A stretch of 61,040 nt of DNA from a virus: the IMG/VR virus record IMGVR_UViG_3300035138_000079, positions 1 to 61,040 of that record, one strand, 5' to 3'. Within the stretch, counting starts at the first letter, position 1. Each line of letters begins with the position of its first letter. This document shows, one piece after another, positions 1 through 45,137 of the stretch. The translations under genes and the position numbers were made by a program. The notes beneath the pieces were generated by a model. That model worked only from the letters and a program-made list of their open reading frames with translations, was not told the DNA's origin and searched no databases.

Positions 1-150
1 TGTGATTGGTATCAAGAGACTTTAAAAGGTGGCCCTGTTTGTGGGTTACCTCCTGGAAAAGATTGTCCTTGTGATGTGACAAAGCCTGGTAATCAAAAAG
101 TGAAAGATTATCACAATAAAAGAAGAGATAAATATAAAAAAAGTAAGTAA
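1..150 (+). CDS. 3' end of a small Cys-containing protein (partial)
   Basis: Open from the first base of the window, 49 residues to a TAA stop; the start lies outside. The visible part has three cysteines in a loose CGLPPGKDCPC cluster and a very basic Lys/Arg tail. I do not recognise a family. It is directly followed by a hairpin terminator, so it ends a transcription unit coming from the left. A zinc- or nucleic-acid-binding role would suit the composition but is only a guess. Confidence 0.6.
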   Translation, partial: CDWYQETLKGGPVCGLPPGKDCPCDVTKPGNQKVKDYHNKRRDKYKKSK

Positions 151-154
151 AATG

Positions 155-176
155 AGGGAGATATAATCTCCCTTTT
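155..176 (+). terminator. Intrinsic terminator
   Basis: Stem AGGGAGAT / ATCTCCCT (8 bp, three-base loop) followed by TTTT, five bases after the stop of the first gene. Confidence 0.7.
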
Positions 177-197
177 ATCTATGAGGAGGTTTTTATA

Positions 198-359
198 ATG
201 GAGGAGCCAGGTACTCGTTATAGTTACATGTGTAACTGTGATTTATGTGTTAATATGTATACAAAAAAAGACATGGTGTATTGCCCTACTTGTGATAAAT
301 TGGTTTGTCCTAAATGCTGGGATGAGAAAACTAAAACATGTAGGGATTGTAGAAAATAA
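198..359 (+). CDS. Cys-rich zinc-ribbon mini-protein, 53 aa
   Basis: ATG start seven bases after a GAGGAGG ribosome site. Nine cysteines in 53 residues, mostly in CxxC-type spacing (C12/C14/C17, C29/C32, C37/C40, C48/C51), enough for two zinc sites. No other domain is visible and I cannot assign a function. It precedes the secreted protease gene by 19 bases and is likely cotranscribed with it. It belongs to a large set of short CxxC proteins in this genome. Confidence 0.75.
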   Translation: MEEPGTRYSYMCNCDLCVNMYTKKDMVYCPTCDKLVCPKCWDEKTKTCRDCRK

Positions 360-378
360 TTAAAGAGGAGAGAAAATT

Positions 379-1608
379 ATGAGGATTAATTTTAAAAAGT
401 TGTCTTATGTGTTAATGGCTTTAGTTATAGCCATGACATTAGTTGTTAGTATGGGTAATGTTTTTGCAGGTGATAAGGTTAAAGGAGAATTTAGTAAATA
501 TAAGTTAGGTGTTAAAGGCAAGGAAGCTGAGAAAAAAGCGGGTATACAGACTATTGATTTACAAAATCTTAATGGCAAGTCTAAAGCTGGCACTGCGGCG
601 GATCATAGTGCTGAGATGCCTCCTGTGGGTAATCAAGGCGGGCAGGGTTCTTGTACTGGTTGGTCTTCTAGTTATTTAATGGGTTTTCAAAAGGCTTCTG
701 AAATGGGCTGGGGTAATCAAATGTTTAGTCCAGCATTTATTTATAACCAGATAAATGGTGGGGTTGATGAAGGGGCTTATACTTCGGATGCTGTTGAATT
801 AATGTATAATATTGGAGCTGTTAGGTTGCCTGTTATGCCTTATTTTGATAGTAATTGGACCACTCAACCTGATGCTGTTCAATTAAATATAGCTGAGAAT
901 TATAAAGCTTCTAATTGGGGTTATATAGAGGATACTCCTGAAAATTTAAAATTGTGGTTGACTAATGATTGTTTTGTAACTTCTATAGCTGTATATGATG
1001 ATTTTTATGATACGCAGGAGCCAGGACATTATTATGATTCAACTAACGGGACTTTATGGGGTTATCATAGTATCTGTATTGTGGGTTATGATGATTCAAA
1101 AAATGCTTATAAGTTTATTAATTCTTGGGGGACTAGTTATGGTGTTAATGGGTATGGTTGGATAACTTATGATGTTATGTCTGCTATAAGTGGTAATAAA
1201 TATGGTATGATCGCTGGGGATAGTGAGCCTATTACTATAAAAAATCGTATTACTTTTAAGGATGCTAGAATTGTCGCAAAGGGTAATAGTTCAGGTGCAG
1301 GAAATCAATGGTCCTTTGCTTGTAAGAATGAGACTAAAAGTACTATGATTAAATATTATAGAGGAAATGATGCCAATCCTGTTATATCTGCGGATGCTTC
1401 TTTTGTTAGCACTTGGGATGGCTGTTACTTAGGGGTGCATGAGTGGGATACTCCTTCTAGTAAGGATGATTATGCTAATAAAACTATTAGTAAATTAGCT
1501 CTGGGGGATAATACTATTTATCTTACTTGTAGAGATTACGATTTAAGCTCTAGTTATTGGAGTAAATGGCGGTTTATAGTTAATAGAATTGAGGTTGAAT
1601 TAAGATAA
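379..1608 (+). CDS. Secreted papain-like (C1 family) cysteine protease
   Basis: 409 aa. A signal peptide is clear: a basic N-terminus (MRINFKK), then a hydrophobic stretch about residues 9-29 ending in VFA-G. The catalytic domain covers about 80-275 and has all papain landmarks: oxyanion Gln86 in NQGGQGSCTGW, nucleophile Cys92, His230 in GYHSICIVGYDD and Asn248 in FINSWG. A beta-rich C-terminal part of about 130 residues follows, of unknown role. Residues 31-78 are short for a classical inhibitor propeptide. The protein should act outside the cell or at the cell surface. C1 proteases are known from clostridial secretomes, but in a phage this looks like a cargo gene. The start has GAGGAGAG upstream; a perfect terminator follows. 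Confidence 0.93.
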   Translation: MRINFKKLSYVLMALVIAMTLVVSMGNVFAGDKVKGEFSKYKLGVKGKEAEKKAGIQTIDLQNLNGKSKAGTAADHSAEMPPVGNQGGQGSCTGWSSSYLMGFQKASEMGWGNQMFSPAFIYNQINGGVDEGAYTSDAVELMYNIGAVRLPVMPYFDSNWTTQPDAVQLNIAENYKASNWGYIEDTPENLKLWLTNDCFVTSIAVYDDFYDTQEPGHYYDSTNGTLWGYHSICIVGYDDSKNAYKFINSWGTSYGVNGYGWITYDVMSAISGNKYGMIAGDSEPITIKNRITFKDARIVAKGNSSGAGNQWSFACKNETKSTMIKYYRGNDANPVISADASFVSTWDGCYLGVHEWDTPSSKDDYANKTISKLALGDNTIYLTCRDYDLSSSYWSKWRFIVNRIEVELR

Positions 1609-1612
1609 ATTT

Positions 1613-1640
1613 AAGGGATTCTAATAAAAGAATCCCTTTT
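1613..1640 (+). terminator. Intrinsic terminator
   Basis: Perfect 10-bp stem AAGGGATTCT / AGAATCCCTT with a six-base loop and a T tail, just after the protease stop. Confidence 0.85.
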
Positions 1641-1658
1641 GTTATAGGAGGAATATTT

Positions 1659-2015
1659 ATGTTTGAAAAGTTTCAATATGTTACTGAGATAGCTAAAATA
1701 TATGCTAAGGAGTATTTTAATAAGCTGGGTATTATGGATCATGTTCGAGAAGTTTCTTTTTTATACGATCATGAATATAAGTATTTAAAAGTTAGCGATA
1801 AATGGGAAGCTGAGATGGCTGATCTTTATATATTGTTGGAGGCTTATTTTAATAGAAAAGATAAGACCTCTATATTAGAAGCCAGATATAAAAGATATAT
1901 AGAGAAGTTTAAGAAAGATGATTCTGCTGAGGCTCTTTTAAAGTGTCCTAAGTGTGGAGTTATAAAGCATTATGAAGGCTTATGTCATAACTGTAGTTTT
2001 GAAGAGGAAGCTTAG
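1659..2015 (+). CDS. Unknown protein with C-terminal zinc ribbon
   Basis: 118 aa, ATG seven bases after AGGAGG. Residues 1-90 are mainly charged and helical with no recognisable domain. The last 25 residues hold two CxxC knuckles (CPKCG and CHNCS) that form a rubredoxin-type zinc ribbon. It lies between a terminator and a class A promoter, so it is expressed only by read-through or from a promoter I cannot see. Function unknown. Confidence 0.75.
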   Translation: MFEKFQYVTEIAKIYAKEYFNKLGIMDHVREVSFLYDHEYKYLKVSDKWEAEMADLYILLEAYFNRKDKTSILEARYKRYIEKFKKDDSAEALLKCPKCGVIKHYEGLCHNCSFEEEA

Positions 2016-2033
2016 AATTATTTTAAATAATCC

Positions 2034-2080
2034 TTGACATATGTAAAGCATGGGTATATAATTAAATCATAAGATAAATT
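2034..2080 (+). promoter_or_regulatory. Class A promoter with ACATATGT palindrome and CATAAGATAAAT leader
   Basis: TTGACA at 2034-2039 and TATAAT at 2057-2062, spacer 17. The -35 box runs into ACATATGT. The leader motif CATAAGATAAAT follows the -10 box. Drives the gene at 2103. Confidence 0.85.
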
Positions 2081-2102
2081 ATATTTTTAGGAGGAGTCAA
2101 TT

Positions 2103-2738
2103 ATGTGTGATTATGTACCTTGTGACGCTTATGGTGCGTGTATGTTTAATGTAAATGGTTATTGTGAGTATGATGATGGAGTGGACTCTGAGCAAGAAAT
2201 GGAGTGTGTAAATAATACTAAGGAGGAGACTATGGGAAGAGAATTAATTATAAATAAATATACATTTAAATATTCGGTGGAAAATTATTATTTGAGTTTG
2301 CAGGAGCAGGATTTATTAGATGTTATGCCCAATAGAAAAAAGCTTAATAATGAAATTTATAAACTTAAAAAAACTTTTTATGAGGGTTATTTTATAGATG
2401 GTTTAAGTGTCATTTATGATAAGAATTATAAGGCATTACCTTTGACATTAGGAGAGGTATGCAGCTATATGTCCAATGGTTTTATTAATGAATTTAATAG
2501 CTTTAGTAATGATTTGGAGGAAATAGGGTCTCATATACCATATGTAAGCTTTATAAGCCCGAACTTTGAATTTATAGCTACTGAAAAGGTAGCTGATGTG
2601 GAAAGAACTCAGAAAATGTCTGTATGGGATTATTTAGCTGACTGTCATTATTATTCTTTTGGTAATACTATAGAGGAGGCCGAAAAAGATTTATGGCCTA
2701 TCTTTAATAGGGAAAGAAGGTATATTGATTCTCTCTAG
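2103..2738 (+). CDS. Unknown protein, Cys-rich N-terminus, possible internal start
   Basis: 211 aa from the ATG seven bases after AGGAGG. The first 40 residues are acidic with six cysteines; the remainder is hydrophilic, ends in an Asp/Glu/Arg-rich tail and matches no family I know. A second strong ribosome site (AGGAGG, 2221-2226) precedes an in-frame ATG at 2232, which would give a 168-aa form without the Cys-rich head. Both products may be made. It follows a class A promoter and sits just upstream of the amidoligase, which has its own class A promoter. Confidence 0.7.
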   Translation: MCDYVPCDAYGACMFNVNGYCEYDDGVDSEQEMECVNNTKEETMGRELIINKYTFKYSVENYYLSLQEQDLLDVMPNRKKLNNEIYKLKKTFYEGYFIDGLSVIYDKNYKALPLTLGEVCSYMSNGFINEFNSFSNDLEEIGSHIPYVSFISPNFEFIATEKVADVERTQKMSVWDYLADCHYYSFGNTIEEAEKDLWPIFNRERRYIDSL

Positions 2739-2775
2739 AAAATAAAATATTAACATAAAAAGTTTAAAATCCTCC

Positions 2776-2822
2776 TTGACATATGTAAAGGTTTATTATA
2801 TAATGTAAACATAAGATAAATC
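2776..2822 (+). promoter_or_regulatory. Class A promoter with leader motif
   Basis: TTGACA 2776-2781, 17-base spacer, TATAAT 2799-2804, then ACATAAGATAAAT. Upstream of the amidoligase gene. Confidence 0.87.
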
Positions 2823-2852
2823 ATTACAAATTATTTAAGGGGGATTTTAAAA

Positions 2853-3695
2853 ATGAAAAAATTAACTGGCAGAAAGTTTGGTATTGAGATAGAAATGTTA
2901 GTACCTCAGCAATATACAGGCAGAAATGTGGCCGATATTTTAATGGCTGAGGGTATTCCTTGTATATATGCTGGATATACTCATGAAGTATTAAATAATT
3001 GTTGGAAAGTCGTAACTGACTGTTCCATAAAGCCTGAGGAATCAATTAAAACAGTTAATTTTAAAGGATATGAGTTAGTATCTCCACCTTTATCGGGTAA
3101 AGATGGTGTTAATCAGTTAAAGGCTGTATGTGCTGTATTAGATACCATAGGAGCCACTGTTAATAAGTCTTGTGGTTTACATATACATCATGAGATTGTA
3201 GACTATACTTTAGATAGTTGGAAAACACTAACTAAAGCATACTTAAAGTTTGAGGATGAAATTGATAATTTTATGCCTCGCTCCAGAAAAGGCAATGCTA
3301 ATCTATATTGCTTAAACTTCTCAGATGTTTATTCTTTATCAGGCATGAATTTAAAATCAAAATTTGATTTAATCGATTCTAAAAGTACAGTTAGTGACTT
3401 ACTTGAGGTATTCACTGACACTTATAGAGCTAGATATAGAAAATTAAATGTAACCAGTTATGCTGTTTACGGTACTATTGAGTTTCGTCATCATAGTGGC
3501 ACTGTAGAGTTTGAAAAAATAGTGAACTGGTTGCTACTAACTCAGGGTTTAGTGGAAAGAGGGGCTAGGGCTAAAAAAGTTGTAGCTAAAAGACCAAACC
3601 AAGATAAATGGTTTGAATCCTTGATGTATACCGCTGAGGTAGAAGCTAGTGTAGTAAAATTCTATACTGGAAGAAAAGCATTATTAGCCTCTTAG
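2853..3695 (+). CDS. Amidoligase family protein (glutamine-synthetase-like fold)
   Basis: 280 aa. Hallmarks of the Amidoligase_2 family are visible in order: FGIEIEM (9-15), ELVSPPL (74-80), the metal-site motif CGLHIHH (107-113), the RxRYRKLN segment (192-199) and TIEFRHHSGT (208-217). Members of this family use ATP to form amide or peptide bonds and are known in phages; the substrates are mostly unproven, with peptide tagging or cell-wall-like peptides proposed. Start ATG has the ribosome site AAGGGGGA, the same sequence as before the sigma-like gene at 52352. It has its own class A promoter, and its codon use has more C-ending codons than neighbouring genes, which hints at high expression. 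No dedicated gamma-glutamyl cyclotransferase partner is seen nearby. Confidence 0.88.
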   Translation: MKKLTGRKFGIEIEMLVPQQYTGRNVADILMAEGIPCIYAGYTHEVLNNCWKVVTDCSIKPEESIKTVNFKGYELVSPPLSGKDGVNQLKAVCAVLDTIGATVNKSCGLHIHHEIVDYTLDSWKTLTKAYLKFEDEIDNFMPRSRKGNANLYCLNFSDVYSLSGMNLKSKFDLIDSKSTVSDLLEVFTDTYRARYRKLNVTSYAVYGTIEFRHHSGTVEFEKIVNWLLLTQGLVERGARAKKVVAKRPNQDKWFESLMYTAEVEASVVKFYTGRKALLAS

Positions 3696-3722
3696 GGCTA
3701 ATAGTGTTAGGAGGTGAATAGA

Positions 3723-3956
3723 ATGTTAAAATATAGTGATGATAGGCATATATTTTCTGGGGATACTTGTCTTGAAGTGGTCCAGGAAATGAAAAAGGCA
3801 GCTTATTGCAATGATAAGTCGGACCTGATATATATGTGTCAGGTACGTGATCGAGTGGAGATTTTAAAAGGTGTAAAAATAAGAGTGAATGCAGAGGGAT
3901 TTTTAAATGATTTGGAGTCCTTGGGTATACTGCATTTTATTAGAAATTTGAGTTAA
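3723..3956 (+). CDS. Unknown small protein, 77 aa
   Basis: Start chosen at the ATG (3723) because the upstream in-frame GTG at 3714 lies inside the ribosome site TTAGGAGGTG. A soluble, mixed-charge protein with two cysteines; no family recognised. It follows the amidoligase by 27 bases and is likely in its transcript. Confidence 0.7.
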   Translation: MLKYSDDRHIFSGDTCLEVVQEMKKAAYCNDKSDLIYMCQVRDRVEILKGVKIRVNAEGFLNDLESLGILHFIRNLS

Positions 3957-3974
3957 AAATTTTTAGCTTAATGC

Positions 3975-4021
3975 TTGACATATGTCAAGTCTTATTATAT
4001 AATAAGAACATAAGATAAATA
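3975..4021 (+). promoter_or_regulatory. Class A promoter with perfect 14-bp palindrome
   Basis: TTGACA 3975-3980, spacer 17, TATAAT 3998-4003. Here the -35 region is a perfect palindrome TTGACATATGTCAA (3975-3988). ACATAAGATAAAT follows. Drives the 56-aa gene at 4046. Confidence 0.88.
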
Positions 4022-4045
4022 ATAAATTTTGAGGAGGACGTTAAA

Positions 4046-4216
4046 ATGTTAAGTGTTATAGCTAAAAAAATAATTGCAAGTAGATTAATGGATAGAGGAA
4101 TTGAGTTCTCTCAATGGGAACTTGACAACTATATGATAGATAATAGCAAGTTTGAAAACTTTAACGAGTTATACGACTTTGTAGTAAAGAATTGGGGAAA
4201 ATTTATAATAGAGTAG
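4046..4216 (+). CDS. Unknown small protein, 56 aa
   Basis: ATG seven bases after GAGGAGG. Short, helical, with two Trp residues; not recognised. The gene has a private class A promoter and weak hairpin behind it, so it looks monocistronic. It is rich in C-ending codons (TTC, GAC, AAC, TAC), unlike most genes here, which fits an abundant early product. Confidence 0.7.
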   Translation: MLSVIAKKIIASRLMDRGIEFSQWELDNYMIDNSKFENFNELYDFVVKNWGKFIIE

Positions 4217-4240
4217 GGAATATTTCCCCGCTTTGTTTTA
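4216..4240 (+). terminator. Weak terminator-like hairpin
   Basis: GGGAA / TTCCC stem with a three-base loop overlapping the stop codon, then a T-rich stretch. Confidence 0.4.
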
Positions 4241-4254
4241 AAATAAATTTAAGT

Positions 4255-4285
4255 ACAGTCTTTTTTAAATATGAGGCTGTATAAT
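4255..4285 (+). promoter_or_regulatory. Class B promoter (ACA-N22-TATAAT)
   Basis: ACA at 4255-4257 and TATAAT at 4280-4285, exactly 22 bases between. TACAGTC and GGCTGTA around the spacer are also complementary. Precedes the gene at 4315. Confidence 0.65.
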
Positions 4286-4314
4286 ATTATAAGAAAGGAT
4301 TTAAGGATTTTAGT

Positions 4315-4458
4315 ATGGCAGTAAAATGTGATAGATTTCATTGCATAGGGTATTTTGAGTATACTGGAAAAACTGAGGACTTCTCAGGTATTTTATTATA
4401 CGAACATAAATGCACTAGATGTGGCAAAGTAATGTGGTATGAGAGTATAATTTATTAA
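4315..4458 (+). CDS. Zinc-finger mini-protein, 47 aa
   Basis: ATG start with a weak AAGGA site nine bases upstream. Has a C-x4-C pair near the N-terminus (C5, C10) and a CTRCGK knuckle (C33, C36), fitting one zinc site. Resembles short phage zinc-ribbon proteins in general size only; no exact function. First gene after a class B promoter; the next gene starts 18 bases after its stop. Confidence 0.68.
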   Translation: MAVKCDRFHCIGYFEYTGKTEDFSGILLYEHKCTRCGKVMWYESIIY

Positions 4459-4476
4459 GTTTATTAGGAGGTATTT

Positions 4477-4968
4477 ATGGTGAGTGAAATAAAGGAAATA
4501 AAAGATTTTATTAAGGAAGCTGAGAATTATAAAATACAGGTAGTAAATGTGTCTGAGTTAAGAAAAGAGTTTGTTGCTAAATATCCTGTGCTTGATGTTT
4601 GTCTTAATTCTGAGATTGATATCGCAGCAAATTGTGAGGATTTAAGTAAAACTAGATTATTTGAGTTAGCTAAAGATTTTAATAGTCCTATTTATATTGA
4701 GGAGGTTTTTCTGGACTATTCTTCTATTGTATTTAAAAGAGAGTTTTATGATAAGTATAGAAATATGATGTTTAAAAATTTTAATAGCTATGGGGCATAT
4801 CTTAAAGTAGCCAATAAAGCTTTTGAGAAATATGTCAAGCCAGAGCTAAACGATAATTTTGTCGGGTATTTTAAAGCTAATGTGTATGATAACAAAATTG
4901 AATACACCTATATGGAAGAGGTGTATAGAAAAGCTTTAAAAGATTATGAAGAGGCTGTATTTGGATGA
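4477..4968 (+). CDS. Unknown protein, 163 aa
   Basis: ATG after TAGGAGG. A soluble, Lys/Glu-rich protein with many aromatic residues in the second half and no CxxC motif or membrane segment. I recognise no family. It lies in the operon starting at the class B promoter at 4255. Confidence 0.7.
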   Translation: MVSEIKEIKDFIKEAENYKIQVVNVSELRKEFVAKYPVLDVCLNSEIDIAANCEDLSKTRLFELAKDFNSPIYIEEVFLDYSSIVFKREFYDKYRNMMFKNFNSYGAYLKVANKAFEKYVKPELNDNFVGYFKANVYDNKIEYTYMEEVYRKALKDYEEAVFG

Positions 4969-4993
4969 ATCTATTTTATTAGGAGGCGTGATT

Positions 4994-5611
4994 ATGATAG
5001 TAACATTAAGTTTTGAGTTTGTAGTAGAAAATTTAAAGATTGAGGATTTGGAACGTTTAGGAATAACTGAGTTTGGACAGTTACAAGAGACTCCAAAAAT
5101 AACATGGCTTTGTGATGCGGAGCATGTTGAAATAGATAATGTGTATGATGAGGATGGTAAAATAAAAAAGATAGAGATAGAGTATTCTTTCTTAAATAAT
5201 AACTCATTGGATTATTTAAGAAAATTAAAACATTTCTATAAGGATTATTTTAAGTCTGATAATTATAAAATCAGATTCCCTATAGAGTGTTTTATACAAG
5301 ATGAGGATTTTGTTTTTGAGGCTTTTGATAGTGGGGCCGAAGTGCTTGTATTTCAGCTCAGTCTGTCAGATTTGTGTAAGATTGTGTATGATTATTTAGA
5401 ATCTTGCTTAGAAGCTGAAATAGAAATTTATAGGGATTTGTTAAAAACATCAAAAGAGTCTCTTATTTCTCTTTTGGATGAGGACTTTAGTATAACACGA
5501 TTAAGAGATTGCGGGTTTAAAGTTAAAGATTTGTTTAATAGGTTAAAAGATAGAGAGAAAAAATTCGATACTCTTAGAGATAAGTATAATGCTTATGACC
5601 TTTTCGATTAA
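4994..5611 (+). CDS. Unknown acidic protein, 205 aa
   Basis: Start placed at the ATG (4994) eight bases after AGGAGG; an in-frame ATG at 4946 lies in the preceding gene and has no ribosome site. Strongly acidic, with a likely coiled coil near the C-terminus (KDREKKFDTLRDKY region). No family recognised. Same operon as the two preceding genes. Confidence 0.7.
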   Translation: MIVTLSFEFVVENLKIEDLERLGITEFGQLQETPKITWLCDAEHVEIDNVYDEDGKIKKIEIEYSFLNNNSLDYLRKLKHFYKDYFKSDNYKIRFPIECFIQDEDFVFEAFDSGAEVLVFQLSLSDLCKIVYDYLESCLEAEIEIYRDLLKTSKESLISLLDEDFSITRLRDCGFKVKDLFNRLKDREKKFDTLRDKYNAYDLFD

Positions 5612-9032: not shown

Positions 9033-11888
9033 ATGGTGGAAATGACGAAAATACAAATAGAAAATTTTTTAACTTCGATTATGCCTAAAATGGAAATGCC
9101 TGAGGCTTTTTTAGGTTGTGAGTGTAATACTTATGGAGAATGGGGAAAAGGTTTATTTTATAAAGAATGGGATTCTGCTGAGCTTAAATTTTTAATAGCA
9201 AATCCTTGGGGCTATAGAGATTTTGTTGGTAATCAAGGAGGACCTTTATTATATAAATTGATTAATGAGTATAGGAGATCGGATGGTATAAGACCTTTTA
9301 AAGCTGAAAGGTCTTTTATGCCTATTAGTTATAAAGAATTAAGATACTTTGAGGGGATTCCTATGTTTGGTTTGGAGTCTAAGAAGCCTATGGGTGAGTT
9401 TGATGTGGTAGGGTTTTCTTTAGGATTTCCCCCATTTTTAGCTAATGTAGTTAAAGTGTTAAAGATGTCGGGGATTCCTGTAAGATGGAAAGACAGAGAA
9501 GAAATGAAAGAAAATTATCCTTTGATTATTTCAGGAGGTTCTACTTTTGGGAGTCCTGAGATTTGGAGTCCTATAGTAGACTTTATGTTTATTGGAGAGG
9601 CTGAGGATGAAAAAGGGTCTCCTGGTTTAATGGCTGTATTAGAAGATATTAACTCTTTTAAAAAGGAAGCTGAGAGTTTTTATTATACTAAAGAAGGACG
9701 TGAAGAATTATTGCATTTTTTAGCTAAAGAATATGATTTCTTATATATGCCTAAGTTTTTATACCCTAAATATAAAAAGGTGAATAATGAGCTTAAAATA
9801 GAGTGTTTTGAGGCTAAATATGATGATATACCTAAGAAGATTAAAAAAAGATTTGTTAAGGATTTAAATAATGTGCCTTGTGTGGATGCCCCTCCAGTAC
9901 CTTGGATTTTTCCTGAGATGGGTTTAGGTGAGGTTGAATTAGCAAGGGGTTGTAATGCTGGTAACTGTTCCTTTTGTGCTGTAGGGTATCGATATAGGCC
10001 TTATAGGGAAAGGTCTATCCCTTATATGGTCAAAGCTTTAAAGGCTAATATTAAAAACTCTGGTTCTATTTATGCTTTCCCAACGGCTTTTGAGTATACG
10101 GGATATACTCAAAAGAATTTATTAACTAAGACTATTCTAGAGAAAGTGTCTGACACCTTTGATTCTCAGTCTCAGAGGATTGATAGTATGGCTGAGGACG
10201 CTAATTTTTCTTTAATATCTGGTGAGGGTGGCATGAATCAGTTGGCTGTTGGAGTAGAAGGAAGCTCAGAAAGATTAAGGACTTTTGTCAATAAAGGTGC
10301 CACTGAGGAAGTTATTTTAAAAGCTTGTGAAAATACAATTAGGGGCGGTTATAAAAAGTTAAAATTATATATGATTGCTAACTTGCCTTTTGAGTCCGAT
10401 AAAGATATAGAAGATTTTTTAGAGTTGTGTAAAAAAATTATGGATTTAAAGACTTCTATGGGGTCTTCTATAGGTGTGAGGGTTTCTTTTACACCTTTAT
10501 TAATTGAATCCTGGACTCCTTTCCAATGGCATAGGGCTACTGTAGGAGAAAAGCGATTAGCTGGTATCTTTCAAAAAATAAGAGACTTAGGTATAGAATT
10601 TACTTTAGGGAAAAAAACAAAAGAGAATTATTTGTGGAGTACTCAAGTAGCTCATTTATGTGATAGGCTTGGGGGTTATGCTCTGGTGGATTCTTATGAT
10701 GAATTGGACGCAGCTTATATAGGAGCTGTGGATAGTAGAATGAAAGAAACTTTAGAAAAAAACCTGCAGAAATATGGAGTGTCTTATGAGTATTATTTTA
10801 AAGAAAAACCTTGGGATTATATTTTTGGTTGGGATCATATTGATATAGGAGTAACTAAAGATTATATTTATGGGTTGTATAAAAAGTCTTGTGATTTTAT
10901 GCTTAATACAGAGTTAGGAGAAGATCATAGAGGACCTAATAAAAATGGTTTTCTTGTTAAAAAGTGTCTACATGGTTGTAGTACTTGTGGGGCTTGTAGT
11001 CCTGTAGAAGCAAAAAAGGTCCAGGATTCTTATAAGGCTAGAGAGAAAGATATTAGTTTTAAAGATTTATCATCTTTAAAGCGTAAGGATGAATCAACTA
11101 TAAGAGAAAAAGTAAGATTAAAAGTTTGCATACATAAAAAATATAAGTGTGTAGAAAATGTTTACTGGAAATGTTTAATTAGGCGAGCCGCTTGGAAGGC
11201 TGATATACCTATTACTAAAAGAAGTATTAGGTTTGTGTCTGATAATATTAAATTTAAGAATTGGTTATATGGTATTGATTATATAGAATTTGGTTTGCTA
11301 GAAAAGTATATTAAAAATGAGAAAGATTTAAGAGTCTTAATAAGTGAGATGAATAAAGAATTAACTCATTTTGGTATTGAGCTTTTAGATGGTATTAAAG
11401 TACCCTCTTCTATGGAAAGTTTAAAGAAACAAAAAGGATACTCTTTATATCAAATAGATACGGATAAAACAGAAATGTCTGTTATTAATGCCCTTAATTA
11501 TTGGCATAAAGCTGAAAAGGTTACTATGAAAATTAGAGAGATGATTTATAGGGCTGGTCTTAATGTTATTGAATGTAATGCTAAGGATTTTGTTAGTGAT
11601 ATATGGGCTGTGAGAGAGGGATTAGAGGTAAAACTTAAACTATTTGTTAAAGGTAAGGCCTCTCCTTTTGAGGTATATAATGCTTTATTTAATAAGGTTT
11701 TTGGTGAGGCTTATAAGCATAATATTTTAAGAGTCGATAGTTTTGTTTCTTTTAAGGATATACAGGCTGATTTTTTTAGACCTTCTTGTGTGGAGTGTGG
11801 GAAAACTATTCCTGTAAACTTTTTAGATAAATCTTTAAGTATTGATTTTTGTCCTAGATGTGCTGATAAGGGGAAGTTAATAAAATAA
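9033..11888 (+). CDS. Large B12-binding-type radical SAM protein fused to a DUF2344-like domain
   Basis: 951 aa. Residues about 95-195 look like the cobalamin-binding-type N-terminal domain of the TIGR03960 family (FDVVGFSLGFPPFLANV, PLIISGG, DFMFIGEAED). The radical SAM core starts near 295 with ELARGCNAGNCSFC; Cys307, Cys312 and Cys315 should hold the [4Fe-4S] cluster, in an unusual Cx4Cx2C spacing. A second cysteine group at 645-655 (CLHGCSTCGAC) may bind another cluster. Residues about 690-900 resemble the DUF2344 partner protein that is often a separate neighbouring gene in Clostridia. The end carries a zinc ribbon (CVECG and CPRC). In bacteria this pair lies near RNase E/G and ribosomal protein genes, role not established. 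In a phage it could modify RNA, protein or DNA; inference only. Confidence 0.85.
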   Translation: MVEMTKIQIENFLTSIMPKMEMPEAFLGCECNTYGEWGKGLFYKEWDSAELKFLIANPWGYRDFVGNQGGPLLYKLINEYRRSDGIRPFKAERSFMPISYKELRYFEGIPMFGLESKKPMGEFDVVGFSLGFPPFLANVVKVLKMSGIPVRWKDREEMKENYPLIISGGSTFGSPEIWSPIVDFMFIGEAEDEKGSPGLMAVLEDINSFKKEAESFYYTKEGREELLHFLAKEYDFLYMPKFLYPKYKKVNNELKIECFEAKYDDIPKKIKKRFVKDLNNVPCVDAPPVPWIFPEMGLGEVELARGCNAGNCSFCAVGYRYRPYRERSIPYMVKALKANIKNSGSIYAFPTAFEYTGYTQKNLLTKTILEKVSDTFDSQSQRIDSMAEDANFSLISGEGGMNQLAVGVEGSSERLRTFVNKGATEEVILKACENTIRGGYKKLKLYMIANLPFESDKDIEDFLELCKKIMDLKTSMGSSIGVRVSFTPLLIESWTPFQWHRATVGEKRLAGIFQKIRDLGIEFTLGKKTKENYLWSTQVAHLCDRLGGYALVDSYDELDAAYIGAVDSRMKETLEKNLQKYGVSYEYYFKEKPWDYIFGWDHIDIGVTKDYIYGLYKKSCDFMLNTELGEDHRGPNKNGFLVKKCLHGCSTCGACSPVEAKKVQDSYKAREKDISFKDLSSLKRKDESTIREKVRLKVCIHKKYKCVENVYWKCLIRRAAWKADIPITKRSIRFVSDNIKFKNWLYGIDYIEFGLLEKYIKNEKDLRVLISEMNKELTHFGIELLDGIKVPSSMESLKKQKGYSLYQIDTDKTEMSVINALNYWHKAEKVTMKIREMIYRAGLNVIECNAKDFVSDIWAVREGLEVKLKLFVKGKASPFEVYNALFNKVFGEAYKHNILRVDSFVSFKDIQADFFRPSCVECGKTIPVNFLDKSLSIDFCPRCADKGKLIK

Positions 11889-14807: not shown

Positions 14808-14837
14808 TATTAAATCTTATTTATGGAGGTAAAGGGA

Positions 14838-15872
14838 ATGAAAAAAGTAACTGTTATATTACCCTCTCATAACGAGGAGAAAATTATAAAAAAGGCCGTT
14901 ACTTCTTTATTAAATCAAACTTTTTGTAATATTGAAATTGTTGTCGCTTTGGATAATTGCACTGATAGAACTCAAAAGATTGTGGTAGATTCTTTTAGAG
15001 GAAATCCAAAAGTTAGAGTTTTTAAAAGTAAAAATAATAGACATAAAAAAGCAGGTGTTTTAAATCAATTATTTAGACTTTATTTTGATAAAATGGGTGA
15101 TTATATTTTAGTAATGGATGCGGATACAATTTTAGATCATAGGGCTATATTAGAAGGTGTAAAGTTTTTAGAATTGTATAAAGATCATGGAGCTGTGTGT
15201 TCTAGAGCTGGCATTTTAAATAGTGGAAAAAGAAATATGTTGTGGTGTTTTCAAAATATAGAGTATGGTTTTGGTGATACTAGTTTTGTTGAGAGTTTTG
15301 GAAATGTTTTTGTTTGTAGAGGAATGTATTCCATGTATACTAAGAAAGCCTTAAAAAATGTTTTACAAAGAGGTTTTATTTATGATATTTCGAGTATAAC
15401 GGAAGATTATGAGTTAACTTTAGAATTGAAAAAGAAAGGTTATAAAATATCCTCTTATAATAATATAAAGGCATATACTGATGTACCTTTAAAATTAAAA
15501 GAATTTTGGGTTCAGAGGGTGCGTTGGTTAAAAGGTGGATTAGAGGATTTAAAAAAGCATGGGTTAAAAAAATATACAAAAACAGATGTTTTTGAGGCTT
15601 TATTTAATAGGGCTATAATTTTAATACAAATATTTTTTATAATAGAAGCTGTAAAGGTAAGAAGTGTTAATATATATTTCTTGAGTTTAATTATTGGAGT
15701 TTATTTGTTAAATGCTGCTATTCGTTTTAAATATGTTCAGCATAAGAGTTTTAAAACTTATATGTTGGTTTTTACAGTTTTTCCAATGTTATTTTATAGT
15801 TGGTTAAATGCATTATTAATGTTATATACAACTATTTTAGCATTGTTTAAAATAAATATAAAATGGAGATAA
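14838..15872 (+). CDS. Processive family 2 glycosyltransferase, membrane-bound
   Basis: 344 aa from the ATG at 14838; the in-frame ATG at 14823 lies before the GGAGG site. The GT2 catalytic domain covers about 1-240: nucleotide-sugar binding region with VILPSHNEE, DAD at 94-96 (metal/UDP-sugar), TED at 188-190 (catalytic base) and QRVRW at 226-230, the QxxRW motif of processive beta-glycan synthases such as hyaluronan, cellulose and poly-GlcNAc synthases. Three to four membrane helices follow. It probably adds sugars to a cell-surface polymer from a UDP-sugar. Such phage genes often change the host surface and block later phages. It starts the envelope operon that runs to about 18.2 kb. Confidence 0.9.
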   Translation: MKKVTVILPSHNEEKIIKKAVTSLLNQTFCNIEIVVALDNCTDRTQKIVVDSFRGNPKVRVFKSKNNRHKKAGVLNQLFRLYFDKMGDYILVMDADTILDHRAILEGVKFLELYKDHGAVCSRAGILNSGKRNMLWCFQNIEYGFGDTSFVESFGNVFVCRGMYSMYTKKALKNVLQRGFIYDISSITEDYELTLELKKKGYKISSYNNIKAYTDVPLKLKEFWVQRVRWLKGGLEDLKKHGLKKYTKTDVFEALFNRAIILIQIFFIIEAVKVRSVNIYFLSLIIGVYLLNAAIRFKYVQHKSFKTYMLVFTVFPMLFYSWLNALLMLYTTILALFKINIKWR

Positions 15873-16072: not shown

Positions 16073-16771
16073 ATGGATAATTTTTGGAAGGATAATAAAA
16101 ATAATATGTATGATGAAAATGAGGAGACTAAATTATTTAATGTGACAGGTAATTTTTGGGTGGATTCTTTGATTTTAAGTGTGGTACCTTGGTTACTTAT
16201 AGGGCTTGAAAGTAATAAAAGACTTAAATTTGTATGGTGGAAAGCTTGTTTAGTTGGTTTGGCTGCTTTATTGCTTGCTAATTTTAGTTTTGGTGATTTG
16301 CTAGGTTTAGGTACTGATTATAAAGCAAAGTATAAAGAAACTTTAGGGAAGTATGAAAAGTTAGAGGATAAGTTTAATGATTATGAGAATAAAGTTTCTG
16401 AGTATCAATCTAAAGTGGATAAATTAGAGGCTGAGAAAGATGATAAAAAGGTAGTTGTTAAGGAAACTGAAAAAGCTACTCCTAAACCTACTGAGAAGCC
16501 CACTAAGAAACCTGTAGTTAAAAAGACTTATAATTTTGGTCCTGGGCGTTATGTTGTTGGGTCTGATATTAAAGCTGGTACTTATGATATAGTTTGTTCG
16601 TCTGGTAGTGGTAATGTTATAGCTCATGATAATGGTTTTATGAATTCAGTTAATTTAATAATGAGTACTGTGGCAGATGATTTATATATTAGCAATTATA
16701 AAAATGCTAAGTTGAATAAAGGAGCTACTTTACAATTAGAAAGTGTTAGTGTAAAACTTATAGAAAAGTAG
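16073..16771 (+). CDS. Membrane protein with coiled coil and secreted beta domain
   Basis: 232 aa. Two hydrophobic stretches at about 27-45 and 53-75 anchor the protein, followed by a coiled coil (about 86-130), a Thr/Pro/Lys-rich linker, and a C-terminal domain from about 153 with GRYVVGSDIKAGTYDI, a pattern common in surface lipoproteins of Firmicutes. The C-terminal domain probably lies outside the cell. Part of the envelope cassette; exact role unknown. Confidence 0.78.
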   Translation: MDNFWKDNKNNMYDENEETKLFNVTGNFWVDSLILSVVPWLLIGLESNKRLKFVWWKACLVGLAALLLANFSFGDLLGLGTDYKAKYKETLGKYEKLEDKFNDYENKVSEYQSKVDKLEAEKDDKKVVVKETEKATPKPTEKPTKKPVVKKTYNFGPGRYVVGSDIKAGTYDIVCSSGSGNVIAHDNGFMNSVNLIMSTVADDLYISNYKNAKLNKGATLQLESVSVKLIEK

Positions 16772-19691: not shown

Positions 19692-20189
19692 ATGCCTACT
19701 AATAATGGTGTTAATTGGATTGAAATTAAAGATTTGTATATTATGGGTGAGCTTGATAAGGAAGGAAAAATAATTTATAGCTCTAATGTGGATTTAGCCA
19801 AAAGGTTTGGGATTTCTCCTCAGGCTTTAAGTGTAAGAATAAAAGAGGAGAACTGGAAAACTGAGAAGAAATTATATTTAGATAATGTAGAAAAACGTAA
19901 GAGAGAAAAACGCATTGAGTCTCTAGCTGAGGAGGCGGCGAATTTTGATTTGAGAGTTTTAAATGTTGCTAAGGATGGATTAGAACATGTTGAGCATTAT
20001 TTTAGACAAGCTAAATTTAAATATAATGAAACTGGAAAGACTATGTCTTTAGATAGTTTAGAGTCTTTGGCAAGGTGTACAGATAAATTTCAAAAGATAG
20101 GCAGACTTGCTTTAGGTGAAAATACTAGTGCTGCTCAATCTAATATTGAGACTTGGTTGGACTTATTTGATGTGATAGAAGATGATTAG
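19692..20189 (+). CDS. terS: Terminase small subunit
   Basis: 165 aa. N-terminal helix-turn-helix (DLAKRFGISPQALSVRIKEE, about 37-56) for recognising phage DNA, then helical oligomerisation part rich in charged residues. Starts at ATG after GGGGGTG. Overlaps the large subunit gene by eight bases. It should bind the packaging site and feed DNA to the motor protein. Confidence 0.88.
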   Translation: MPTNNGVNWIEIKDLYIMGELDKEGKIIYSSNVDLAKRFGISPQALSVRIKEENWKTEKKLYLDNVEKRKREKRIESLAEEAANFDLRVLNVAKDGLEHVEHYFRQAKFKYNETGKTMSLDSLESLARCTDKFQKIGRLALGENTSAAQSNIETWLDLFDVIEDD

Positions 20190-21696
20190 TAAAGATACCG
20201 CAAGGCAGTTGTTGAGTAAAAGCAAGGAAAAGCCTGATTGGTTTATTAAGAATATGCTTGGGGCTGAGTTGTGGCAGAAACAAATTGATATAATAAATTC
20301 TGTTAAAGACAAAAGATATACTACTGTTAGGGCCTGTCATGGTCCTGGTAAAACTTTTTTATCTGGAAATACTGTGTTATGGTTCTTATATACGCATAAA
20401 CCTTCTAAAGTTATAACTACGGCTCCTACTGGGAGACAAGTTTATTCTTTATTATGGTCAGAGATAAGAGAAGCTCATGGAAGAGGCAGTAAGATTAGGC
20501 CTTTAGGGGGAGACCCTTTAAAAACTAGATTAGAATTAAAGCCTGGGTGGTATGCCGAAGGGTTTGCTACTTCTGAGTTTAATATAGAGAGGGTTACGGG
20601 ATATCATTCTGATAATATTTTAATTATTGTTGATGAAGCTAGTGGAGTTCCCGACCCTATATTTGATGCTTTAGAAGGATTAATGTCTTCTGGTAATGCT
20701 CACATGTTACTTGTAGGAAATCCAACTAGAGCTGAGGGAAGATTTAGAGAATCTTTTACTAATGATTTATATGCTAAATTTAAAATATCAGCTTTTGACA
20801 CACCTAATTTTGTTTATTTTGGTATAACTAGAGAGGATATTTTAACTGGGGCTTGGCAAGAAAAAGTTGGGGATAAGAAGATGCCCAGACCTTATTTAGT
20901 TACTCCTCAATGGGTAGCTGAAAGGTTTCAGACTTGGGGATCAGAGTCCGTTTTAGTAAAAATTAAAATTGATGCTGATTTTCCTAGTAGTGACCAAACT
21001 GATAAAGTTATTCCTATAGCTGATTTAGATGAGTGTAGGGATTTGTATTTTGCTCAAGATGAAATGTATTCAGAGATTGAGGTTGGAGTTGATATAGCCA
21101 GATATGGAACGGATGAGTCTGTATTAGCTTTTAGGGCAGGCAGACAGCCATTATATGAAAGAGTGTTATATCATAAGTCCACTATGGCTGTAGTAGGAGC
21201 TATAAGAGAGGAGATATCTTTTTTAGGTCCTCATAGGGTCAGTAAAATTAAGTTAGATGTTATTGGTTTAGGTGCAGGTCCTGTGGATAGATTGTTGGAG
21301 CTACAAGAAGAAGGAGAATTTCCTCAACATATCGAGATTATTGGTGTTAATGTAGCTATGGCTAGTAAGGATTTAAAAACTAAAGAGTTAAAAAAGGATA
21401 GATTAAGATTTGTAACTTTAAGAGATAATTTATGGTGGCAATTTAGAGAACGAGTACAAAAGAGAGAAATATCTACTAAGAATATTTCCTCGGAAGGATT
21501 AAAAGAATTATCGGCTCCTGAGTATACTATGACTTCTAAGGGTCAGACAAAAATTGAGTCAAAGGAAGATTTACGGAAAGCTGATCGATTGGGTAAGTCT
21601 CCTGATAGAGGAGACGCATGGTTATTAGCTTTTGGTAATGTAGTTCCTGAGAAAAGAAATAAGAGAGCTAAAGTTAGAGTTAGGGGAAGGAGGTAA
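20182..21696 (+). CDS. terL: Terminase large subunit
   Basis: 504 aa. ATPase part: Walker A-like CHGPGKT at 52-58, Walker B IIVDEAS with acidic pair at 151-152. Nuclease part: DIARYGTDES with Asp304, further acidic residue in KLDVIG and a final DRGDAW near residue 483, the RNase H-fold triad. It drives DNA into proheads and cuts the concatemer. Full length for the family. Confidence 0.93.
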   Translation: MISKDTARQLLSKSKEKPDWFIKNMLGAELWQKQIDIINSVKDKRYTTVRACHGPGKTFLSGNTVLWFLYTHKPSKVITTAPTGRQVYSLLWSEIREAHGRGSKIRPLGGDPLKTRLELKPGWYAEGFATSEFNIERVTGYHSDNILIIVDEASGVPDPIFDALEGLMSSGNAHMLLVGNPTRAEGRFRESFTNDLYAKFKISAFDTPNFVYFGITREDILTGAWQEKVGDKKMPRPYLVTPQWVAERFQTWGSESVLVKIKIDADFPSSDQTDKVIPIADLDECRDLYFAQDEMYSEIEVGVDIARYGTDESVLAFRAGRQPLYERVLYHKSTMAVVGAIREEISFLGPHRVSKIKLDVIGLGAGPVDRLLELQEEGEFPQHIEIIGVNVAMASKDLKTKELKKDRLRFVTLRDNLWWQFRERVQKREISTKNISSEGLKELSAPEYTMTSKGQTKIESKEDLRKADRLGKSPDRGDAWLLAFGNVVPEKRNKRAKVRVRGRR

Positions 21697-27042: not shown

Positions 27043-28068
27043 ATGGCTAGTAATATGGAAATTTTAGCAAAGTTGGATGCAGCTTTTAAAGGTATCACTG
27101 AAATATCTGATTTTGGGGATAGTATATTACAACCTGAGAAGTTCGATAGATTTGTAAGAACTATGGAACATGCTGTTAATGTTTTACCTAATGCTAGATT
27201 TATCAGGATGGATGCTCAAAAATCTGATATTGATAGAACAGGTTTTGTAGGAAGAATTATAAAAGCTGGTAGAGCTGCTGCTCAAGGTGGCGGGGCTGTA
27301 GTAGAATTAAATGCGTCTACTCATGGGGTTAGTCCTACACCTGTCACTAATCAGTTAATAGCTAGAGAGCTTGTAGCTATTACATCTCTTAGAGATGATG
27401 CATTAAGAAGAAATATTGAAAGAGGTGGGTTTGAGGATACTTTATTAGACCTATTTGGTGGAGCCGCTGGTAGAGATTTAGAAGAATATTGTTTACTTGG
27501 TGATACTGGTGTTGCTTATGGTACTGATGATGTGTTGTCTCAGACTGATGGATGGATTAAGTTAGCTGGTAATAAAATATATGGTGCGGGTGCTGGTAAG
27601 GATTTTGATCCTGCTGCTAGTTCTTATCCTGAGAATATGTTTGACGCTATGTTAGCTGCTTTACCTAAACAATATCTTGTTAATGTACAAGATTGGGAGT
27701 ATGAGGTAACTTGGGAAGTTCATAATGCTTATCATAATTTACTAAAAGCTAGAGGTACTGCTTTAGGTGATACGGCTCAAGTAGGAATGCCTCAATTGTA
27801 TTATAAGGGTATTAAAGTTAAATATGTACCAACATTAGAAAGGGCTGCTACTTCTGGTGCTTCTGATGATGGTTTAATGAATGGTAAAATTGCTTTGTTG
27901 ACTAATCCTGATAATATGGCATATGGTGTTTTCCATGATGTTATGGTTGAGAGGGAAAGAGAAGCTAAGGCAAGAAGGACTGACTTTGTTCTTTCTTTTG
28001 AAGGGGATGCCCATTATGAGGACGAAAATGCTAGTGTGGCTGCTTTGATTCAAAAAGAATCGGCTTAA
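27043..28068 (+). CDS. Major capsid protein (HK97 fold)
   Basis: 341 aa. Follows the protease gene, has TAAGGAG upstream, and shows the layout of XkdG-like capsid proteins: helical N-arm, RTGFVGRI, ELVAITSLRDDALRRNIERGG region and an A-domain with NPDNMAYG near 290. The gene is relatively Gly/Ala-rich with regular codons, as expected for the most abundant protein. Confidence 0.88.
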   Translation: MASNMEILAKLDAAFKGITEISDFGDSILQPEKFDRFVRTMEHAVNVLPNARFIRMDAQKSDIDRTGFVGRIIKAGRAAAQGGGAVVELNASTHGVSPTPVTNQLIARELVAITSLRDDALRRNIERGGFEDTLLDLFGGAAGRDLEEYCLLGDTGVAYGTDDVLSQTDGWIKLAGNKIYGAGAGKDFDPAASSYPENMFDAMLAALPKQYLVNVQDWEYEVTWEVHNAYHNLLKARGTALGDTAQVGMPQLYYKGIKVKYVPTLERAATSGASDDGLMNGKIALLTNPDNMAYGVFHDVMVEREREAKARRTDFVLSFEGDAHYEDENASVAALIQKESA

Positions 28069-39232: not shown

Positions 39233-39736
39233 ATGGCTTTAGTTATACCTTTAGGAGGCGGTGTCGGATATAAGAATTTTTTTAATTTAGAGGGTTCTTA
39301 TTTAGGAATTGTTGAAGATGGTAAATTTCAAGATGTAAGACAGTTTAAAGAAATTAAGAGGGTTACTGATGGGTTTAATTTTGTTGGAGACAAAGATATT
39401 TTAAAAATTAATTCAATGTTAACTTTAAAATATTATAGTTGGTCTCTAAAAAATTTAATTGCTGGGGTACCTTTTGATATAGATACTGGTAGTGATGGTT
39501 ATGGAAGTTTTACTAAATATTCTGTAAGAAGTTCTTATAGTTCTAGTGATTTATTGGAGGATATAACTTTTATAGGTAGTAAGTATGGGGGTGACTCCAT
39601 AACTATATCTTTAAAAAATGCTTTGAATATTGAAAATAATGCGATTAATTTTAATGAAAGAATATATCATGAGGTTACTTATGTTGGTTTTTATGCTTTT
39701 AGTAGTAGTGACCCTGTGGTAAATATTTTAGAGTAA
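39233..39736 (+). CDS. Unknown tail protein, 167 aa
   Basis: ATG after GGAGGGG. Beta-rich with Gly/Ser/Tyr-rich turns; no family recognised. Lies between Tal and a large adhesin, so probably part of the tail tip. Confidence 0.65.
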   Translation: MALVIPLGGGVGYKNFFNLEGSYLGIVEDGKFQDVRQFKEIKRVTDGFNFVGDKDILKINSMLTLKYYSWSLKNLIAGVPFDIDTGSDGYGSFTKYSVRSSYSSSDLLEDITFIGSKYGGDSITISLKNALNIENNAINFNERIYHEVTYVGFYAFSSSDPVVNILE

Positions 39737-39750
39737 AGGGGGTTATTTAA

Positions 39751-42531: not shown

Positions 42532-44240
42532 TGGCTGAGTATGGGACTTTTTATCCTTCTCATTCTTTTGATGATGGTTTTATTTTTAAAAATTATATCT
42601 CAGAGGTTTATCAAGATACTGATTTTGAAAATACAGAGGATTTAATAATTGGAGATTGGGAGCATGGTTCCTCATATTCTATAGCACATAGTTATATTAG
42701 ATTTAGAAATGTTAATATTTCTAAGGGGTCTACAATTAGAGTAGCTACGTTGCGGTTATATTGTATGTTTACTTATGATGATGCTTATGATTGTGATGTT
42801 AGGGCGTATTTTGAGAAAACAGCAAATCCTAATAGTATTGTAGACGCTGCGGATTTTGAAAGTAGGGCAGCTTCTTTAAGCACTGCTTATGGGGAATTTA
42901 ATGTTTTAGATGCTGATAGGGAATGGTTGGAGGTAGATATAACATCTGTTTTACAAGAAATAATTGATCAGCAAGAATGGATTAATGGTAATAATGCTCA
43001 GGCTATATTATTAACTCAGGCTTCGGCCCATAGTGATCCTTTTGATGCAGATATATATTTAGAGGCTTTTGATAATCTTTATGAGACGGGTTATATCCCA
43101 GAGTTGGTGGTTGAATGGGATGAACCTCCTGAGCCTACGCCTGTGTTACCACAATATAACCATTTTTATAATAATAGATTAGAAACTTTTGAATATGAGT
43201 TGTTAAAATTAGATAATGGCATTTATAAAACTGCGGGATTATTAGATTTAGTTAAAAGAAATTCTGGTGTAGTCTCTATGGATTTTACTAGAGATGTGAT
43301 TGGAGATTTAAAATTAGAGTTGATAGATGATAGTTCTATTGATTATATAACAGATTTAATACGGCCCTGGTTTATTATAAATGGTAATAGATATCCAATG
43401 GGTACATATTTTTTAAATAAACCTGTAGACTCTGTCACTGATCGAGCTATTTCTCATAGTGTAGAGGGTACGGATATATTAGAAGCTTTAGAACAGGATA
43501 AAATTGATGTTTCTTATGTTGCTTATAAGGGTGATAATGTTATCACTTTAGTAAAAGCTTTAATAGCTTCTGTAGGTTCTTGGGTTAGATATGAAATTCA
43601 AGATAATGCCGCCACTTTATCTGAGGATATGAGTTATGAAATAGGACGTTCTAAATTGTTTATTATAAATGGGTTGCTTAATACAATTAATTATTATCCC
43701 TTATGGTCCAATGGTTATGGAGTTCTTAAGACTATTGCATGGAAAGAGGACCCACAAATTACTTGGACTTTTAAAGATGATGAATATAGTTTATATAAAG
43801 GTGATTTTAAGAGAACTAAAAATTATATAGATATTTATAATAAAGTTATTTTGGTTGCTAATCAGGCTGAGGCAGATACAGAGCCTTTAATTAGTGTGAA
43901 AACTATGGAGGATGTGGGGTTGTCTGCTCATCCTTTATCTTATACAAATATTAGTAGATATAGAACTCGTAAATTTGATAGTGAGGCTTCGACTCAGGGT
44001 TATTTAGATTTAAGAGCTAAGAGGGAATTATATAAAATGTTAGAGGTTCAGGAAGATATTGAGTTTGTACATGCTTTTGTAACCCGTAGAGCTGATGGTT
44101 TACCTAATCAAGGTGATGCTTATGCTTTTTATAATAAGACTAATCAAGGAGTTTATTTATTGAAAAAACAAGTTTTTAATTTGAAGCCTGGGGGTTTAGT
44201 TGGTACTACAATGCAACAAATAAGGGAGGTAGTTTTATAA
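42531..44240 (+). CDS. Tail-tip protein with DNRLRE-like N-terminus and hub-like C-terminus
   Basis: 569 aa. Residues about 20-200 resemble the N-terminal domain of the Tal protein at 36597 (TLRLYCMF, EKTANPNSIVDAADF, IIDQQEWINGNNAQ, PELVVEW). From about 210 on, FEYELLKLDNGIYKTAGLLDLV and later TWTFKDDEYSLYKGDFKRTKNYIDIYNKVIL look like the hub-like part of tail-tip or baseplate proteins. The protein is part of the coupled row 39751-44842. Confidence 0.72.
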   Translation: MAEYGTFYPSHSFDDGFIFKNYISEVYQDTDFENTEDLIIGDWEHGSSYSIAHSYIRFRNVNISKGSTIRVATLRLYCMFTYDDAYDCDVRAYFEKTANPNSIVDAADFESRAASLSTAYGEFNVLDADREWLEVDITSVLQEIIDQQEWINGNNAQAILLTQASAHSDPFDADIYLEAFDNLYETGYIPELVVEWDEPPEPTPVLPQYNHFYNNRLETFEYELLKLDNGIYKTAGLLDLVKRNSGVVSMDFTRDVIGDLKLELIDDSSIDYITDLIRPWFIINGNRYPMGTYFLNKPVDSVTDRAISHSVEGTDILEALEQDKIDVSYVAYKGDNVITLVKALIASVGSWVRYEIQDNAATLSEDMSYEIGRSKLFIINGLLNTINYYPLWSNGYGVLKTIAWKEDPQITWTFKDDEYSLYKGDFKRTKNYIDIYNKVILVANQAEADTEPLISVKTMEDVGLSAHPLSYTNISRYRTRKFDSEASTQGYLDLRAKRELYKMLEVQEDIEFVHAFVTRRADGLPNQGDAYAFYNKTNQGVYLLKKQVFNLKPGGLVGTTMQQIREVVL

Positions 44241-44842: not shown

Positions 44843-44854
44843 AGGGGTGTTGAT

Positions 44855-45121
44855 ATGGCTAATGATGGCAAGTGTGTTTTTCATGAGGAATTTAAGGCTG
44901 TTATTGATGGTTTACAAAAGGATGTTAGAAAATTAAATGATGAGACCTTAACTAATAGTAATAAGTTAAAGGAATATGAAGCTTTTAAAAAAGAGATTAC
45001 TAAGAATGTTTGTGAACAGAGAAAAGAATTAATGTCTTTTTTAAGATGGGCTGTTGTATTTGCTTTTACTATTTTTGTATTTGTTTTTGGAGTAATCCAA
45101 TGGATAATAGACAAACATTAG
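44855..45121 (+). CDS. XhlA-like membrane protein of the lysis cassette
   Basis: 88 aa. Coiled-coil N-terminal part (about 12-60) and one membrane helix at about 66-84 close to the C-terminus. This is the XhlA/BhlA layout, a protein that helps holin and endolysin in Bacillus-type phages. It is placed directly before the endolysin gene. Confidence 0.78.
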   Translation: MANDGKCVFHEEFKAVIDGLQKDVRKLNDETLTNSNKLKEYEAFKKEITKNVCEQRKELMSFLRWAVVFAFTIFVFVFGVIQWIIDKH

Positions 45122-45137
45122 AAAGGAGGTGTTATAT

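Follow-up and report, generated by a model that had tools for sequence, protein, structure and literature searches.

The window, meaning the whole stretch of DNA analysed here, is a linear virus record of 61,040 bases. It carries genes for terminase, portal, head maturation protease, capsid, tape measure and tail proteins, together with ligase, helicase, primase and polymerase. A search with the polymerase identified contigs of two close sister phages: G001, of 79,979 bases, whose polymerase is 100% identical, and G002, of 88,665 bases (95%). Positions 1-5000 of the window are 89% identical to G001 DNA over their full length, with gene order kept. About 29 kb present in G001 between the positions corresponding to base 1 of the window and to the polymerase are missing from the window, which suggests a genome of near 90 kb. 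Close to base 1 lies the gene for a predicted secreted peptidase, the features of which are as follows.

198-359, + strand: Cys-rich 53-aa ORF directly upstream of the protease gene
364-372, + strand: ribosome-binding sequence AGAGGAGAG, read from the sequence
379-1608, + strand: gene for a predicted secreted, xylellain-type C1A peptidase of 409 aa (ORF, Pfam, PHROG, PDB sequence and fold matches)
379-468, + strand: predicted signal peptide, residues 1-30, identical as protein to that of sister phage G001
469-588, + strand: putative pro-segment, residues 31-70 (alignment)
589-1224, + strand: C1 peptidase core, residues 71-282 (Pfam, alignments and a model with pLDDT mostly >90)
634-636, 652-654, 1066-1068 and 1120-1122, + strand: catalytic codons Q86, C92, H230 and N248, respectively (alignment)
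1225-1605, + strand: C-terminal domain, residues 283-409, belonging to no database family and mostly beta in low-confidence models
1613-1638, + strand: intrinsic terminator 3' of the protease gene, unlike those of G001 and G002
1659-2015, + strand: downstream flanking ORF marking the 3' limit of the swapped block; its identity is 96% in G001, 90% in G002

ORF 379-1608 starts with ATG and matched PF00112 (Peptidase_C1) in Pfam with E 2.5e-7 and 31.5 bits, against a gathering cut-off of 20.7, as well as phrog_16701 ('peptidase') in PHROG (E 4.8e-12). Its best solved relative was xylellain of Xylella fastidiosa (PDB 3ois), by sequence (E 5.3e-13) and by fold (E 7e-18); 3ois headed 291 PDB fold matches at E<=0.001, as expected of a papain fold. 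The AlphaFold2 core was confident, with ten-residue pLDDT means of 82-98 over residues 71-280, and a search of BFVD matched 24 viral proteins (E<=0.001), of which several came from Caudovirales. NCBIfam gave no match for any of the three phage peptidases described here, and PADLOC gave nothing for the five proteins submitted. Gln86, Cys92, His230 and Asn248, the C1A catalytic set, were invariant and in order in a 36-row alignment, which bears out the original prediction that all catalytic residues are present. Taken together, alignment and model confirmed the prediction of an intact C1A papain-like peptidase.

The leader reads MRINFKK-LSYVLMALVIAMTLVVS-MGNVFA, with a KK pair, a hydrophobic core and an A-x-A-like end, and its best 12-residue mean hydropathy is 2.93. 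The n-, h- and c-regions and a signal peptidase site were recognised by inspection and hydropathy alone, and on these grounds the signal peptide does appear as good as had been claimed. The putative pro-segment that follows carries an F-S-K-Y-K-L-G-like motif, which the alignment showed to be common to the other phage copies.

We found no consensus promoter just upstream of the protease gene; the nearest in G001 lies ~700 bases away, and a terminator-like hairpin (154-174) stands between the nearest promoter and the gene. With so distant a promoter and an intervening hairpin, the timing of expression can only be guessed. Of the promoter and terminator that a moron carries of its own, the terminator was found adjoining the gene and the promoter was not.

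Elsewhere in the window, near-consensus TTGACA-17-TATAAT promoters number ten on the coding (+) strand and one on the - strand, and because of this bias a bacterium is the more likely host. Positions 2034, 2776, 3975, 14338 and 46063 (+ strand) carry repeated perfect TTGACA-17-TATAAT promoters, which have the start TTGACATATGT in common; the one at 3975 is palindromic over its -35 (TTGACATATGTCAA) and could be an operator. The terminase (20182-21696) is nearest to that of a Methanosarcinales virus (39%), and the nearest named relatives of the capsid (27043-28068) belong to Methanobacterium and Methanothermobacter viruses (~33%). A host was searched for and not found; in a search made with no positive control, the capsid was not detected in eight genomes containing papain relatives. 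The accessory block adjoining the protease includes an Amidoligase_2 protein (2853-3695; PF12224, E 4e-36). At 9033-11888 lies a 951-aa B12-binding radical SAM protein, related to TIGR03960 well under the cut-off and with no PHROG match.

Exchange and absence of the gene among sister phages

The 77 ORFs of the window were compared with G001 and G002. Matches in G001 were found for 66, and 62 of these were 96-100% identical; the peptidase was the lowest of all, at 55%. The others below 96% were a 53-aa frame (74% over 43% of its length), ORF 16073-16771 (85%) and another 53-aa frame (92%). Of the 11 ORFs unmatched in G001, eight (39233-46433) coincide with the end of the G001 contig. Matches in G002 were found for 73 of the 77 ORFs, the peptidase being among the four without one. 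Only 33 bases separate the matched flanks there, the upstream ORF running directly into a terminator. The gene is thus present in one phage and missing from a close relative in which its neighbours are joined, as is typical of a moron.

Alignment of window and G001 DNA located the edges of the divergence. Near-identity extends across the upstream ORF and most signal-peptide codons, then drops to ~65% in the mature part; the two terminators differ, and near-identity resumes from ~1645. Nei-Gojobori counts gave pN 0 and pS 0.105 for the leader, and pS of 0.64, 0.44 and 0.51 with pN of 0.39, 0.31 and 0.34 for the pro-segment, core and C-terminal domain, respectively; for five flanking genes pS was 0.04-0.11 and pN 0-0.03. 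Since silent sites have diverged too, the pattern indicates replacement by a distant allele rather than fast protein change in place. Synonymous saturation in this 32% GC genome inflates dN/dS, and we therefore make no case for adaptive evolution. Because the leader is identical while mature part and terminator differ, the gene must have been swapped at the signal-peptide boundary. The active site is kept in both alleles and in the copy of a third phage, G025 (see below). These results show that the exchanged block runs from the signal-peptide boundary to the terminator, with one allele-carrying and one empty sister found.

A lysis cassette stands elsewhere in the window, with an XhlA-like protein and an M15 endolysin (45129-45686) that has a peptidoglycan-binding domain. 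Since the phage has this endolysin of its own, the C1 peptidase is neither its main lysin nor the sole or main peptidoglycan hydrolase of a lysis cassette. The gene had been predicted to play no part in phage growth, and its absence from G002 together with the separate M15 endolysin agrees with this.

Two further genes of the window are missing from both sisters. One, at 14823-15872, encodes a GT2-family glycosyltransferase (PF00535, PgaC/GtrB-like) and forms a second variable cassette, which probably acts at the cell surface. The other (56900-57649) encodes a pRha regulatory protein (PF09669), whose nearest named relatives are in Plesiomonas and Vibrio phages (~40%).

Relatives of the core and of the C-terminal domain

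To find relatives, viral contigs and genomes were scanned with a profile built from a 3-row alignment. Five viral loci were recovered: the G001 copy, a full-length homologue in G025, two core-only matches (35% and 33%) and one weak match (28%). The G025 homologue (L164) includes the C-terminal domain and is 39% identical by BLASTP. G025 itself is a siphophage-like contig of 55,853 bases. The window terminase has no match among its genes, and it shares few genes with the window group, for example a HAD-like protein at 72-75% (labelled HAD by eye). A run of its genes (L169, 385-9978) resembles surface-sugar synthesis, as judged by eye from N-termini. A single-protein scan of the viral contigs found no relative, a weak negative since it also missed the G001 copy present in the collection. 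PF00112 was found in none of 16 records related to the window through its capsid or amidoligase, most of them short pieces; these 16 came from the 40 distinct records of the capsid and amidoligase searches, G001 and G002 aside. One candidate locus, L174, was rejected as a homologue because the matching strand there carries no ORF of 80 aa or more.

Scanning of bacterial and archaeal genomes recovered 145 relatives from many phyla, of which 80 were kept (29-42% identical). Structure alignment A3 drew on 31 of these 80 loci, and a C1 core tree of 83 rows on 74 (L142, L151, L152, L153, L159 and L160 were left out, and viral locus L167 was unused). The three phage copies formed one clade in this tree (support 100/99), which Halanaerobacter jeridensis adjoins (99/88). 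Papain relatives occurred in 2 of 13 genomes of Halanaerobacter's order; among 391 Clostridia-class genomes, 4 had one at E 1e-20. On a Priestia megaterium plasmid (L016, 2899-4093), a C1 peptidase gene is followed directly by a gene for an I42 (chagasin-like) inhibitor, and the two may be a protease/inhibitor pair.

Within the phage clade, the core tree groups the G001 copy with that of G025, not with that of the window (100/87). Core identities agree (G001-G025 58.8% versus window-G001 56.3%). Over the whole protein the order is reversed, at 57.6% for window-G001 versus 44.7% for G001-G025, and so it is for the C-terminal domain (53.7% versus 27.8%). We do not press the G001-G025 pairing because the overall and C-terminal identities favour window-G001. 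Domain-level mosaicism within the protease gene is suggested by these sequence comparisons, and is not clear.

Leaders are common among the bacterial relatives. An SP-like leader could be read from some in-frame start in 72 of the 77 relatives with a complete 5' end, compared with 114 of 291 other ORFs from the same loci; for the latter we considered the first start and any ATG within the first 100 codons, a rule near-identical to that for the relatives and not the same. The rule is permissive, yet the excess of predicted leaders among the bacterial relatives is large. C-terminal extensions are also present in most of them, and in 6 of 10 sampled relatives these were domains of adhesion or Ig type (F5/8C, fn3, CARDB in two, Big_7 and Big_5). 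Since leaders and adhesion-type extensions are common in the relatives, the family design appears to be that of an exported protease joined to a C-terminal binding part, a plan to which the phage protein conforms with its own domain.

The C-terminal domain of the phage protein was modelled unreliably within the whole protein (pLDDT <50 over most of it) and poorly by itself (mostly strands, mean pLDDT 49.8). Pfam matched it in none of the three phage copies, even at E 1, and comparison with the PDB gave nothing below E 0.2. Neither tblastn of the homologue loci nor an HMM search of all loci detected a relative outside the three phages, and a later viral scan with the domain recovered the two other known phages only. 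Among the 391 Clostridia-class genomes there was one weak match (E 5e-4, in a 942-aa frame). That match aside, the domain has no known relatives beyond these phages in the searches made. By analogy with the C-terminal extensions of its relatives, it is probably a binding or targeting module.

Possible roles and known systems

We propose, with a probability of roughly one half, that the gene is an accessory, moron-like cassette for an exported and exchangeable xylellain-type C1A protease that cuts an extracytoplasmic, most likely host-surface, protein. The infected cell would make the peptidase before lysis and, as the signal peptide predicts, export it by Sec, with the leader and probably also the pro-segment being removed. 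The Cys/His/Asn enzyme would then cleave a protein outside the cytoplasmic membrane, the likeliest substrate class being a host cell-surface protein (S-layer, pilus or receptor). Such cleavage would keep competing phages out or release progeny from debris, and allele exchange would change substrate or inhibitor specificity with export unchanged. If the enzyme does act on the host surface, it would offer the phage a protease-based way to alter its host's display to other phages, and the existence of allele-carrying and empty sister phages makes this idea directly testable by comparison. A bolder version, which we regard as doubtful, would see here a dedicated phage lineage of exported proteases that strip or edit host surface proteins against rival phages; unrelated phages would exchange the mature part, with the signal-peptide boundary as the joint, in step with the variety of host surface proteins or host protease inhibitors.

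An exported enzyme might instead digest external protein so that amino acids feed the infected cell, as a nutrient-scavenging, auxiliary metabolic protease. The bacterial relatives, mostly exported, with adhesion-type domains and spread over many phyla, may feed in this way. However, we saw neither a peptide transporter gene nor any other catabolic gene adjoining the protease gene (ORFs examined by eye, some by Pfam), and the sharp allele difference between near-identical phages would be more in keeping with a specific antagonist or target than with bulk digestion. We therefore think scavenging rather unlikely.

Help with release, in which late cleavage of an S-layer or envelope protein is completed by the M15 endolysin, would fit an exported protease encoded in addition to a separate endolysin, and growth of G002 without the gene shows only that such help is optional. 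Yet the gene and the lysis cassette (44855-45686) are ~44 kb apart, and the gene is surrounded by small genes with sigma-70-type promoters at their head, outside the structural and lysis block, making this role improbable in our view.

The original prediction also raised a conversion gene, acting on competitors or in a eukaryotic environment. Precedents exist in a C10 protease on a Bacteroides fragilis prophage (PMC2873492) and in GtgE, a phage-encoded papain-like effector (PMC10318531). However, neither tyrosine integrase (PF00589) nor resolvase (PF00239) matched in any of the four records, window, G001, G002 and G025, which are perhaps incomplete. With neither found, lysogenic conversion is unsupported and this part of the prediction was not upheld; as far as these possibly incomplete records go, there is no sign of the temperate phage that a lysogenic conversion gene calls for. 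The phage moreover has a replication gene set of its own, and no eukaryotic link was found; the evidence points neither towards nor away from a eukaryotic or gut setting. A conversion factor accordingly seems very unlikely.

There is still less to suggest a virion or entry protein, packed in or attached to particles and cutting a surface protein during entry. Virions of jumbo phage XacN1, for which a C1 family peptidase is listed, do contain envelope enzymes (M23 peptidase, chitinase and lipase; PMC5852040). However, our peptidase has a Sec leader and its gene is outside the structural block, and the virion enzymes named in the portion of PMC5852040 drawn on here do not include ORF382, the C1 peptidase of XacN1. 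Finally, host-DNA contamination or an assembly chimera at the contig end, a concern raised with the original prediction and favoured by the start of the gene 379 bases from that end, is refuted for practical purposes: gene and flanks recur internally in the 79,979-base G001, and the flanks are the same in G002.

Among known enzymes, the proposed exported protease most resembles xylellain (3ois; MEROPS C1A, a short bacterial C1A), with which it shares the Gln/Cys/His/Asn set and an N-terminal segment before the core. The two are ~23% identical in the fold alignment, and the phage protein differs in adding a 127-residue C-terminal domain. Short xylellain-type C1A peptidases have been acquired independently by Mimiviridae and by Myoviridae and Siphoviridae (PMC10380794), the latter cases being, like ours, tailed phages with a bacterial C1A peptidase; the available portion of that paper describes no swap pattern. 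A C1 protease in a phage is thus not in itself surprising, such cases being already published (PMC10380794). Our search of INPHARED returned two matches, Burkholderia phage FLC9 and an uncultured 595-kb phage, both to the core only and both in another part of the core tree; the FLC9 protein has no leader.

C10 proteases are exported cysteine proteases of clan CA, the clan of the window enzyme too. The C10 protease gene bfp3 of Bacteroides fragilis resembles the window gene in lying on a siphovirus-type element, the siphovirus-like prophage Bfgi2 (PMC2873492). It differs in family (C10, not C1) and in residing on a temperate prophage, and the part of PMC2873492 drawn on makes no comparison of alleles between sister phages. 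The CHAP-type cell-wall enzyme of PMC5146660, as far as the part of that paper considered goes, is not a close parallel.

Phage morons and superinfection exclusion genes share with the protease gene its optional nature, its precise absence from a sister and its own terminator. Unlike phage morons, it has no adjoining promoter of its own, and an exclusion role here is our inference; a review of superinfection exclusion (PMC11436027) uses neither 'protease' nor 'proteoly' in its main text. Our searches of the open-licence literature found no description of the swap pattern or of the C-terminal domain. We conclude that the C-terminal domain and the pattern of swap and absence are new; tailed phages with C1A peptidases, and a prophage with a clan-CA protease, had been published before. 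Because the gene belongs to a known class, that of phage-borne C1A peptidases, the advance is one of architecture and evolution, not of the enzyme itself.
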